Shown here: piece by piece, positions 8,761 through 13,239 of the stretch | How positions within the stretch are numbered: the first letter of the stretch is position 1 | Layout: every line of letters starts with the position of its first letter | DNA from: Candidatus Saccharimonadota bacterium | Lineage (GTDB): Bacteria; Patescibacteriota; Saccharimonadia; Saccharimonadales; Saccharimonadaceae | Length of the DNA: 45,870 nt | Assembly: GCA_017510705.1 (NCBI GenBank) | Contig: JAFWMO010000004.1 | Coordinates: 1 to 45,870, forward strand | Direction: 5' to 3' | Notes under the pieces: model-generated | Told to the model about the DNA's origin: nothing | Seen by the model: only the letters and a program-made list of their open reading frames with translations | The model's database searches: none | Translations under genes and position numbers: made by a program

Positions 8761-10689
8761 GTGGCAGATAATACACCGAAAAGGCCTGCGCCGCGCGCTG
8801 GGAATAATAATTCAAAATCTAATGCAATCAGAAGTGTGCTTTTTACTGTCGTGATGATTTGTATCGCGATGCTTTTTGTAGTTAATTTTAATAATACTGG
8901 CGCAAAGAAGACTGAAGTGCCAATTTCGGATGTAATAAGGCGTGCGAACGACCCGAATGGTAATATTGCTAAGATTACTGTGACTGGTAATAATTTGGAT
9001 ATTACTTTGAAAGACAAAAAAGAGCCAACTGAAACTTCTAGAAAAGATGGTTCCGGTACGCTTTATGATCAAGGTCTTATGAATTATTGCGATGGGCTAG
9101 AAGCAGAGGAACTTGGCGAGTGCGAAAAGAATTATCCAGTGATTGAATACAAAGAAGACGTGAATATGACTGGCATTATCTTGGATATTGCTCTTACGGT
9201 GCTGCCAATTATTGCAATCGTAATTTTCTTCTCTTGGATGATGCGACAAGCTTCGGCGGCCAATAATCAATCAATGAGTTTTGGTAAAGCTAGAGCAAAA
9301 CTTTATGGTCCCGACAAGAAGAAGGTAACATTTAAAGATGTAGCTGGTAACGAGGCGGCTAAACAAGATTTGACAGAAATTGTAGATTTTCTAAAAAGCC
9401 CAAAGAAATATGAAAAACTTGGCGCGAAGATCCCGCGTGGCGTGCTACTCGCGGGTGATCCTGGTACCGGCAAAACTTTAATGGCTAGGGCTGTAGCGGG
9501 TGAAGCTAATGTGCCGTTTTTCTCAATTTCTGGTTCGGAATTTGCGGAGATGTTTGTAGGCGTAGGTGCAAGTCGTGTACGTGATCTTTTTTCCAAGGCA
9601 AAGAAAAATGCGCCTTCTATTATCTTTATTGATGAGATTGATGCGGTGGCACACAAACGTGATGCGCGTGGTGGTGCAGGACGTGAAGACGAGCAGACGC
9701 TTAACCAAATTCTTGTGGAAATGGATGGATTTGATAACGACAGTGGTGTGATTGTAATGGCAGCTACAAACCGTGTAGATATGCTTGACAAGGCGCTACT
9801 TCGCCCAGGCCGTTTTGACCGTCATGTGAATGTGACTTTGCCAGAGAGAAAAGACCGTTTGGAAATTCTTAAAGTTCATTTTAAGGGCAAGCCGGTAGAA
9901 GAAAATGTAGATCTAGAAGCTTTGGCCAAAAAGACTGCAGGTTCTTCTGGTGCGGACCTTGCCAACATTGCAAACGAGGCGGCGATTACGGCAGCACGTG
10001 AAGGGCACAAAGCAATTTCAAATAGTGACGTAACGGAAGCATTTGAACGTGTAGCGATTGGTCCAGAAAGAAAGTCTAAAGTAATGAATGAAAAAGAGCG
10101 TAAAATTACGGCTTATCATGAGGCTGGGCATGCAATTGTAGGGCATGTGTTGCCGGATAGTGATCCAGTGCATAAAGTTACGATTATTCCACGTGGTGCG
10201 ACTGGTGGTGTAACTTGGTTTCTTCCGCCAGAAGACAGAAGCTATAAGAATATTTATGAATTAAAAGATATTTTGGCGCGAGCTATGGGTGGACGCGTAG
10301 CGGAAAAGTTGGTATTTGGCAAAGATGCGGTGACGACTGGCGCGTCGAGTGACCTTAAAAATGTGGCAGGACTGGCAAAATCTATGATTGTGGAAGAAGG
10401 TATGGGTGAAGGCACGAGAAATTTGGTATTTCCAAGTGAAGCAACTGGATATTATACTATCACTACTGAAAAACCATATTCTGAAAAAACTGCGGAACTG
10501 ATTGATGCAGAAGTTAAGAAACTTTCTGATGAAGCAGCAAAGCGTGCAGAAGAAGTTTTGAAGGCAAACAAGACTTTGCTTGATAAATTGGCAGAGGAAC
10601 TTTTGGCACATGAAACTTTGGAAGAAGCGGAACTAGCACCAATTTTGAAAGGTGCAAAGATGCCGGAAACAGCCAAACTTTATAAATAA
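8761..10689 (+). CDS. ftsH: ATP-dependent zinc metalloprotease FtsH
   Basis: 642 residues, the normal size for this membrane-bound AAA+ protease, which pulls damaged membrane proteins and some regulators out of the bilayer and degrades them. Two membrane helices are visible (about 21-42 and 138-158) around a small external domain. The AAA module carries Walker A GDPGTGKT near 231-238, Walker [11 protein letters not shown] and the second-region ATNRVDMLD...RPGRFDR. The zinc site HEAGH lies near 453-457. The start is GTG with a good AAGGAG 8 bases upstream. The aminopeptidase gene follows 13 bases later, so the two are probably one transcript linking proteolysis with peptide trimming. Confidence 0.97.
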
Positions 10690-10702
10690 AAATGGAGGAA
10701 AA

Positions 10703-13039
10703 ATGGAGCGGTTTTTAGATTATTTTGAACCAGAAAAATATATTCTTAATTTATTAGTGGAGAAGGAAAAGAAAAAACATTCTGGAAATGTAGTGATTTT
10801 TGGCGAGGCAAAGGAAGAAAAAATTAAATTTCATGCGGTAGATTTTGAAATTAAAAAGGTACTAGTGGATGGCGCGAATGTAGAATATAAATATGATGGG
10901 AATATAATTGAAGTTGACGTTTGTGAAGGAAAGCATGAAATAGAAATAGAGTTTAGTCGGCATTTAAATGAAAATATGCAGGGTGCGTATATTTCTACCT
11001 ATGAATATAAAGGTAAAAAAGAAATTATTGTGGCGACACAATTTGAAAGTCATTATGCTAGGGAAGCGTTTCCGTGTATTGACGAGCCGGCGGCAAAAGC
11101 GGTGTTTGAAGTAAATATTTCGCTCCCAAAAGATGCAGACGATTTGATTTTGACTAATACTGCGCTGGGCGAGCCGACACCGAGAATGAGTACTTATCTA
11201 CTTGCGTGGGTGATTGGAAAGTTTCATGGCAAGACGATAAAAAATGCGCATGGCATTGAAATTACGACTTACGTAGCAATGAATCAAGACGCGGATGCGG
11301 TGGATTTTGCAAACGATGTGGCGGCAAAATCATTAGAATTTTATGATGATAATTTTGGCGTGGCATATCCTTTGAAAAAATTAGACCAAGTGGCTTTGCC
11401 AGATTTTGAAGCGGGCGCAATGGAAAACTGGGGGATAGTGACATATCGTGAATCAATGTTAATCGCCGGAAAAGATGCAACTTTGGCTACGAAAAAAGGT
11501 GTAGCGCTAACGGTGGCACATGAGCTTTCGCATCAATGGTTTGGAGATTTGGTGACAATGCAGTGGTGGGATGATTTGTGGCTAAACGAATCATTTGCAA
11601 GCGTAATGGAATATTTTGCAGTGGACAGCGCATACCCAGAATTTAAGATTTTTGAAGGGTTCTTTACTGGTGATGCACTTGCGGCGCTTAGGCGCGACTG
11701 TCTTTCTGGTGTGCAATCGGTGCATCAGGATGTGAAAAATCCAGAAGAAATTGCGACGCTTTTTGATCCGGCGATTGTGTATGCAAAAGGCGCTAGACTA
11801 ATGCTGATGGTGATTCGTGCTATGGGCTGGGAGAATTTTTGCAAGGGTATTCAGGATTATTTCGAGAAGTATAAATATCAAAATACGATTGGTGATAATT
11901 TGTGGGATGCGCTAGATAATTATGCGGATTTTGATGTGAAAAAAATGATGCATGCATTTATTGACAAGCCGGGATATCCAGTAATTACGGATGGAAAGCA
12001 GAAAAGGTTTTTGCTAGACGGGCCAATGAAAGATGAGAGTTGGCCGATTCCAGAAATTACGGAAGATATGTCTTCGCATTATATTTTGAATTTGACTGAT
12101 GCTGAGTTTGAAGAAAGGCTAGCGCGTTTTGATGAATTAAATTTGGAAGAAAAATTACGGCTTCTCATAGACCGTGATCTATTATCTAAAACTTCGCTAG
12201 TTTCGGCGGCGTCTTTGCTACCATTACTTCTCAAATTTAAAAATGAAAATTCGGCGGCAGTGTGGAATATTATTGTGACGATTTTTGGGACATTAAAGAT
12301 TTTCTTTGAATACGGCACGGAGGAGGAGAAGAAATTTAAAAAGTTTGTGCTGGAGCTAGTGGATGCCAAACTAAATGAAATTGGAATTAAGACGCGTGAT
12401 AATGATGACGAAAATACAGTGAGACTAAGAGCAAATCTTCTGGCACTAGATTTTTATGCGGAAGATCTGCCAAGAATTAAGGAACTAGCTGGAATGTATA
12501 ATGAAAATTATAGCGAGATGGATGCAGAGATACGGAGTGATATTTTGGACGCAAAGATTTATTTGGAACCTGAGCTAGTGGATAAATACATTAATGATTA
12601 TGCTAAGATTTCTGATCCGGAGATCAAATTTGATCTTTTGTTTGCGGCGACTTTGTCAAAAGATGAAAAAGTGATTTCTAAAATGGTGGAGCTTCTTAGT
12701 CAGCCAGAAATTGTGAAACCGCAAGACCATTTTCATTTGTTTATTTATGAATACCGGAACCCGGCGGCGAAGGAAAAGGCGTGGGACTGGCTAATTCATA
12801 ATTGGGATTATGTGAAGAAAATTGCGGGGGATAAATCGTTAGAGGATTATCCGAGATATACTGCGACGTCAATTAAGACCAAAGAAGATTTTGATAAGTA
12901 TCTAGAATTTTTTGAACCTATGGCGGGCGACCCAGCGCTTGCGCGTGCGATTGAAGTAGGAAAAAACGAGATTCGTGCAAGACTAGAATTAATCAAAGCG
13001 GATAAAAAAGAGGTCTATAAGACCCTTGGTGCCCACTGA
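10703..13039 (+). CDS. M1-family aminopeptidase
   Basis: 778-residue zinc aminopeptidase that removes N-terminal residues from peptides. The substrate-binding GAMEN motif lies near residue 238, and the zinc motif HELSHQWFGDLVT near 272 with the third ligand Glu in WLNESFA near 292. A long helical C-terminal half follows, as in PepN/ERAP-type enzymes. The start chosen is the ATG after GGAGG, 13 bases downstream of ftsH; a longer frame from 10652 would overlap ftsH without support. The last residues (LGAH) and the stop are encoded inside the first copy of the 63-bp tRNA-derived repeat, so the original C-terminus has been replaced or trimmed. Confidence 0.92.
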   Translation: MERFLDYFEPEKYILNLLVEKEKKKHSGNVVIFGEAKEEKIKFHAVDFEIKKVLVDGANVEYKYDGNIIEVDVCEGKHEIEIEFSRHLNENMQGAYISTYEYKGKKEIIVATQFESHYAREAFPCIDEPAAKAVFEVNISLPKDADDLILTNTALGEPTPRMSTYLLAWVIGKFHGKTIKNAHGIEITTYVAMNQDADAVDFANDVAAKSLEFYDDNFGVAYPLKKLDQVALPDFEAGAMENWGIVTYRESMLIAGKDATLATKKGVALTVAHELSHQWFGDLVTMQWWDDLWLNESFASVMEYFAVDSAYPEFKIFEGFFTGDALAALRRDCLSGVQSVHQDVKNPEEIATLFDPAIVYAKGARLMLMVIRAMGWENFCKGIQDYFEKYKYQNTIGDNLWDALDNYADFDVKKMMHAFIDKPGYPVITDGKQKRFLLDGPMKDESWPIPEITEDMSSHYILNLTDAEFEERLARFDELNLEEKLRLLIDRDLLSKTSLVSAASLLPLLLKFKNENSAAVWNIIVTIFGTLKIFFEYGTEEEKKFKKFVLELVDAKLNEIGIKTRDNDDENTVRLRANLLALDFYAEDLPRIKELAGMYNENYSEMDAEIRSDILDAKIYLEPELVDKYINDYAKISDPEIKFDLLFAATLSKDEKVISKMVELLSQPEIVKPQDHFHLFIYEYRNPAAKEKAWDWLIHNWDYVKKIAGDKSLEDYPRYTATSIKTKEDFDKYLEFFEPMAGDPALARAIEVGKNEIRARLELIKADKKEVYKTLGAH

Positions 13040-13172
13040 GAGATTTGCTCGCGTAGCGCAAATCTCGAAAGATAGGCTACTGGAGCCATTGGTGCCCACT
13101 GAGAGATTTGCTCGCGTAGCGCAAATCTCGAAAGATAGGCTACTGGAGCCATTGGTGCCCACTGAGAGATTT
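13027..13172 (-). repeat. 63-bp tandem repeat derived from the tRNA-Leu 3' end
   Basis: Two full identical units (13027-13089 and 13090-13152) precede a partial third copy that is the real tRNA-Leu 3' end (from 13153, about 20 bases). Each unit, read on the minus strand, holds the tRNA's T-loop/acceptor 3' half ending in CCA, preceded by a perfect 9-bp inverted repeat (GAGATTTGC/GCAAATCTC), plus an unrelated linker. The outermost copy lies inside the 3' end of the aminopeptidase gene. Confidence 0.9.
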
Positions 13173-13239
13173 GAACTCTCACGTCCGTGAAGACACTAGC
13201 ACCTGAAGCTAGCGCGTCTACCAGTTCCGCCAAGCGGGC
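13153..13239 (-). tRNA. tRNA-Leu (anticodon CAG)
   Basis: 87-base class II tRNA on the minus strand: acceptor GCCCGCT/AGTGGGC, anticodon stem CTAGC/GCTAG with loop TTCAGGT, a variable arm (GTCTTCACGGAC), T-loop TTCAAAT and encoded CCA. Its promoter lies 8 bases upstream. The 3' end continues into the 63-bp tandem repeats instead of a terminator. Confidence 0.95.

Follow-up and report, generated by a model that had tools for sequence, protein, structure and literature searches.

tRNA-linked repeats (TLRs) have been known in Escherichia coli since 1978 and are still without an accepted general function. To our knowledge, and as far as a thin literature search goes, they have been described mainly from enterobacteria; that search found nothing on tRNA repeats in Saccharibacteria. 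A TLR is defined by 18–19 bp at its 3' end that exactly repeat the end of the tRNA or rRNA gene upstream of it, and E. coli carries 22 copies at ten loci (PMC8144298, where Egan and Landy 1978 and Rudd 1999 are cited as the sources). The same paper gives no known function, except that members in rRNA operons bind Hfq and CsrA; the RrA, RrB and RrF sRNAs, which are TLRs located after the 5S gene in E. coli rRNA operons, have been found experimentally to be transcribed and processed (PMC8144298). Copy numbers of rtT and of tRNA-Gly repeats vary among Salmonella serovars (PMC2658671), and RtT contains a tandem-GA motif (PMC7657543).

Our own listing of E. coli K-12 covers nine stretches, in which arg, lys, tyr and proK tRNAs are followed by TLR copies at spacers of 80–160 nt (a few of the spacers span a neighbouring tRNA, and the match at alaW is its unmasked neighbour alaX). 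Behind tyrV stand three 178-bp repeats, each of which closes with the tRNA-Tyr end; RttR as annotated (1287066–1287236) has its 3' end exactly at the copied CCA.

The locus described here lies in a 45,870-nucleotide stretch of DNA (the window) from contig JAFWMO010000004.1 of a saccharibacterial draft genome of 657,694 bases in 19 contigs (GCA_017510705.1). A tRNA-Leu gene on the minus strand is followed by a tandem array built on its own 3' end, which faces an aminopeptidase gene on the plus strand. In window coordinates, the features are:

13153–13239, minus strand: tRNA-Leu(CAG) with encoded CCA (ARAGORN; Rfam RF00005, 51.7 bits)
13153–13173, minus strand: the copied segment, the last 21 nt of tRNA-Leu from C56 to A76
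13090–13152, minus strand: proximal unit of 63 bp, composed of a degenerate terminator hairpin GGCTCCAGTAGCC, then the hairpin, then the copy of the tRNA-Leu 3' end up to CCA (TRF)
13103–13129, minus strand: hairpin of the proximal unit, GAGATTTG-CGC-TAC-GCG-AG-CAAATCTC (from the sequence and from covariation across units)
13090–13110, minus strand: copy 1 of tRNA-Leu C56–A76, 21/21 identical
13027–13089, minus strand: distal unit of 63 bp, same sequence as the proximal unit (TRF and repeat search)
13040–13066, minus strand: hairpin of the distal unit, same as the proximal one (from the sequence, and folded)
13027–13047, minus strand: copy 2 of tRNA-Leu C56–A76, 21/21 identical
13001–13025, minus strand: intrinsic terminator-like site, GGGTCTTATAGACCT followed by CTTTTTT, with its stem at 13025–13011
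10652–13039, plus strand: M1-type aminopeptidase ORF, convergent with the array (named from the call of the first-pass annotation and from its sequence)

TRF reports a period of 63 bp with 2.3 copies and 100% matches at 13026–13173, the fractional 0.3 copy being the last 21–22 nt of tRNA-Leu itself. The first unit begins 1 nt past the CCA of tRNA-Leu, with a spacer of 42 nt. The minus-strand sequence of the unit is ATGGCTCCAGTAGCCTATCTTTC-GAGATTTG-CGC-TAC-GCG-AG-CAAATCTCTCAGTGGGCACCA, twice in tandem. Both units contain a 9-bp inverted repeat (GAGATTTGC/GCAAATCTC) with a 9-nt loop, stem and loop being those of the MFE structure. The outer arm of this hairpin is the inverse complement of the copied tRNA-Leu end, and the hairpin takes the place of the T-arm. 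The 27-nt hairpin occurs at these two sites only in the window (allowing up to three mismatches; 0.00 sites expected by chance), and the MFE of a single unit is ordinary (z = −1.6). The first-pass annotation, which had been made from the sequence without database searches, had described two perfect and homogeneous 63-bp units built on the tRNA-Leu end, each with a 9-bp inverted repeat in place of the T-arm, and on all of these points our analysis agrees with it.

The outer CCA is immediately followed by the terminator-like site, which falls in the last part of the aminopeptidase ORF. CTCCAGTAG was rejected as a motif of the element, since it is the loop of a terminator that was duplicated with the unit, and the pattern CACCAN{3,25}CTCCAGTAG was rejected as well, giving mostly chance matches in coding sequence, though it exposed genome G012, in which same-plan units stand at tRNA-Met and at tRNA-Arg. 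The AGTTGG that follows the T-run seems to be part of the duplicated terminator tail (L232). A GNA triloop on the tRNA-antisense strand may have a role at the DNA level, which we considered and found inseparable from a role as RNA.

The last three codons of the aminopeptidase (GGT GCC CAC) and its stop codon TGA come from the distal copy, as had been proposed. The accompanying claim that the repeat had overrun the neighbouring gene is right in that these codons lie within the copy, but the overrun is mild. The aminopeptidases of relatives align to about residue 788–794 of 795 and, since they end near the same point, only about three residues are affected and the gene is barely changed. Judged by eye from their translations, the neighbouring ORFs are FtsH-like, aminopeptidase, glucose-6-phosphate isomerase-like, carbamate kinase-like, and ornithine carbamoyltransferase-like. 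In the closest relative (G070, 79% protein identity), the ornithine carbamoyltransferase-like gene directly follows the aminopeptidase (L053, contig C18), tRNA-Leu and two of the window's genes being absent between them.

A tRNA's own 3' end recurs downstream of 42/120 tRNA genes in three genomes of the genus, and upstream of 0/120; shuffled sequences also gave 0/120. A copy was counted if it matched at least 15 of the tRNA's own last 20 nt within 350 bp, with other tRNAs masked. When the same test was applied to three further genera of this family, 4/97 tRNAs had a copy (Fisher P = 9e-9). The window's genome has such copies at 13/41 tRNAs; the first-pass annotation missed a known class of repeat that stands at about a third of this genome's tRNAs. 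An extended survey of four genomes yielded 62 copy-bearing units beside 165 tRNAs. Copy lengths peak at 21–22 nt (starting at C56) and at 18–19 nt (starting at about position 58), and a third group measures 25–29 nt.

We built a covariance model (R1) from 15 short hairpin units. R1 matches the window at 13090–13137 (43.4 bits) and 13027–13074, the window sequence being part of its training set, and has matches in 69/170 genomes of the genus. Absence of the unit from all related strains, which had been named as grounds for abandoning the original reading, is therefore in general not what is seen, although a search of relatives gave no match to the exact 63-mer of the window. In a 380-genome sample of the phylum, R1 hit four genomes of the genus and gave one weak match (E = 0.009) with no tRNA nearby, hence no convincing match outside the genus. 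Nearly all R1 matches examined lie just 3' of an annotated tRNA; a few of them were training members. All but one of the tRNA-adjacent matches examined end in an 18–20/20 copy of that tRNA; those without a detected tRNA comprise one false match, an orphan array, and two loci at contig starts where the tail of a tRNA is visible. A GTDB pattern scan for one hairpin variant found four rumen or gut MAGs with a copied tRNA end after each unit. The named relatives that share the hairpin come from the ruminant gut and comprise Candidatus Saccharibacteria MAGs together with a single uncultured rumen MAG. Within 341 kb of sampled sequence, the loop motifs of highest specificity were found exclusively behind tRNAs, ACCTTCGGTG at 6/6 sites and GCGTCCCAAGGGGC at 4/4.

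Exact tandem pairs also occur elsewhere, for instance at tRNA-Leu(GAG) in G100, tRNA-Arg in G153 and tRNA-Gln in G189. In the relative G118, the unit behind tRNA-Leu(CAG) (L042) has the same plan but a diverged sequence, and it copies the end of G118's own tRNA, which differs from that of the window. Because the same architecture, exact tandem pairs included, is present in many independent assemblies, such arrays are in general unlikely to be assembly artefacts; this argument applies to the arrays as a class rather than to the exact copy number at the window locus. Units are present at the orthologous tRNAs of some species and absent at those of others, and this patchy distribution counts against an essential function.

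The survey turned up several further arrangements. Locus L250 (G167:C36, about 1063–1240) holds two tandem units with a tRNA-Arg(CCT)-type end and no tRNA detected by ARAGORN; this may be an orphan array or else what lies on the other side of an insertion into tRNA-Arg. Long multi-hairpin units stand behind tRNA-Gln and tRNA-His in other genera of the family (L317 in G391 and L293 in G493); their bodies resemble each other, represent a further type (AACTGCCAGYGRCAGTT...TCAATCGTGAA...GGGGTCGCG) and have no Rfam match. Near-perfect palindromes of ~130 nt directly follow the CCA of tRNA-Ala(CGC), tRNA-Ala(GGC) and tRNA-Ser(GCT) in G118 (L176, L179 and L185), with a degenerate tRNA-end copy after each. 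Finally, G119:C10 and G160:C5, from two draft genomes assigned to different species, carry tRNAs and a repeat unit at identical coordinates, which suggests that one contig was binned twice, and this pair was dropped from close comparison.

The 15 short units, drawn from different tRNAs and species, share a common fold consisting of a 7-bp outer stem, a bulge of 1–2 nt and a 3-bp inner stem capped by a small loop, in which the outer stem is the start of the copy paired with its inverse complement. The expected pairs are formed in 96% of cases, compared with 82.5% after shuffling, with 23 double-change cells versus 7.2 and a covariation score of 0.465 versus 0.205, in a set that was chosen for having the hairpin. 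Structures slid by 1–3 columns were 24–45% paired. The arm fits its own copy better than the copies of other tRNAs (mean stem of 4.95 nt versus 2.47, and 2.39 after shuffling). At the orthologous tRNA-Leu(TAG) genes, the acceptor-region substitutions of G070 relative to G000 recur in the G070 copy. The terminators duplicated with the units of tRNA-Leu(TAG) and tRNA-Ser(CGA) in G000 have diverged while the tRNA copy is unchanged. Some copies are out of step with their gene, as at tRNA-Arg(CCT) and tRNA-Gln(TTG) of G000, whose copies retain an end known in other species. These comparisons show that, from locus to locus and from species to species, arms and copy match whichever tRNA they stand behind. 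A unit directly behind tRNA-Gln(CTG) in G188 (L237, C5:64647–64697) bears a tRNA-Gln(TTG)-type 3' end and may be a unit that stands at the wrong tRNA.

The array is likely a pair of TLRs in minimal form that was probably copied in cis by recombination, is probably co-transcribed with tRNA-Leu and may be processed at CCA. Unequal crossing-over or slippage between the 21–22-bp repeats, that is, the tRNA end and its copies, would create tandem copies and homogenise them; slippage had rightly been listed among the candidate origins, as had tRNA-like ends that act in 3' processing. Recombination between repeated tRNA ends would explain the perfect identity of the units, changes in copy number and the fact that copies follow their own tRNA. 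No integrating element is needed.

What we say of transcription, processing and function of the window's units we infer from the sequence. tRNA-Leu and both units would form one transcript that passes the degenerate first terminator and stops just 3' of the outer CCA, at the terminator inside the convergent aminopeptidase gene. The transcript probably crosses both units, given the degeneracy of the first terminator and the presence of a terminator-like site right where the outer copy ends. By analogy with E. coli RttR, tRNA-type 3' processing at each copied CCA could then free a short hairpin RNA. Most type-A units elsewhere are preceded by a proper terminator, which makes their transcription doubtful.

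An alternative is that the units are small non-autonomous mobile hairpins that insert in trans at tRNA T-loops and regenerate the tRNA 3' end, with unequal exchange merely amplifying them afterwards. Several body types occur at many tRNAs and are stacked at tRNA-Gln (G012 and G079) and tRNA-Tyr (G118), the ACCTTCGGTG motif keeps strictly to tRNAs in the sampled 341 kb, and presence varies among species, all of which would be expected of such elements, as would the mismatched unit of G188. On the other hand, the copy is the upstream tRNA's own in every tRNA-adjacent match examined but one, and the arm is tailored to each tRNA, whereas an inserted element would not carry such an arm. A Y1 (IS200/IS605-type) transposase was considered as the mobiliser and rejected, being absent or below the cut-off in 14 genomes. 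We regard targeted insertion as rather unlikely, though a first unit may be inserted in trans, on the slender evidence of that one G188 unit.

A purely mutational origin, in which fold-back duplications arise at the palindromic T-arm when replication slips or switches template, with no selection or function, fits the perfect tandem copies, the palindromic arms and the patchy distribution. Quasi-palindrome correction can maintain complementary arms, and could do so here. We nevertheless consider this origin improbable, given the concentration of the units at high density in one genus (42/120 tRNAs versus 4/97, and no convincing R1 match outside it in the phylum sample) and the like bodies at different tRNAs and RtT-like sequence in common with E. 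coli, neither of which is expected from independent accidents. The ends of tRNA genes are classic integrase targets, with attachment sites typically extending from the T-loop to the 3' end, as the copy does, but attachment-site duplication by an integrating element, as the first-pass annotation had also suggested, is hardly credible: no element or integrase is found between or beside them, 42-nt spacers with a conserved hairpin and arms complementary to the copy recur at dozens of tRNAs, and scans of phage sequences and IMG/VR gave no match to the unit, the phage matches listed being to the tRNA itself only.

The array can be placed among the described repeats. By position and sequence it is a TLR: it lies directly downstream of a tRNA gene, its 3' end is identical over 21/21 positions including CCA where 18–19 bp are required, and it has two tandem copies where E. 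coli loci have 1–5. It differs in its host, a member of the Patescibacteria/Saccharibacteria in which roughly a third of tRNAs bear a copy, and in where the copy begins (C56, giving 21 nt, versus position 58/59 in E. coli, giving 18–19 nt). With its single hairpin and 63 bp, the window unit is smaller than the TLRs examined in E. coli, and represents a known class in a much shorter form. The bodies of the E. coli tyrT and lys TLRs are likewise closed by a stem of an inverted T-stem segment and the copy. RrA, RrB and RrF bind Hfq and CsrA, and a CsrA-type function cannot be read across to the window's units.

Longer units in genomes of the same genus (spacers of about 157–180 nt) form multi-helix junctions closed by the copied T-stem; the long unit of tRNA-Val in G000 has a fold z of −6.7. 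The Rfam family RtT (RF00391) aligns to two other units of the window's genome, those of tRNA-Arg(GCG) and tRNA-Ser(TGA), over model positions 1–130 and up to the copied tRNA end, with 35.9 and 31.6 bits (E = 1.3e-5 and 8.8e-5, against 4227 families); both scores are below the gathering score of 45 bits, so that these matches point to a relation rather than to membership. These two units and RtT have in common the inverted T-arm, GGTTCGA and the GAGCGAAGCGA motif (tandem-GA hairpin), while an inverted T-arm and a direct half T-arm, together with the motif GGAGCGAAGCGACG, recur in both the E. coli tyrV repeats and the saccharibacterial units. The window's own units have no RtT match even at E = 5, and their link to RtT is one of architecture and of sharing a genome with RtT-like units.

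The TLR class is thus not confined to enterobacteria. The forms in this genus are graded from a 63-bp hairpin to RtT-like four-way junctions, which defines a minimal conserved core, and the many independent copies offer material for a test of whether the repeats are maintained by selection, recombination or mobility. Tentatively, TLRs may be a phylum-crossing class of self-perpetuating tRNA-tail hairpins, of which the units of the genus studied here are the minimal form and E. coli RtT an elaborated branch. If so, the constant parts of a TLR would be the copied tRNA 3' end and the tailored complementary arm alone, and the RtT branch would have reached, or diverged from, the same ancestor as the units of this genus.
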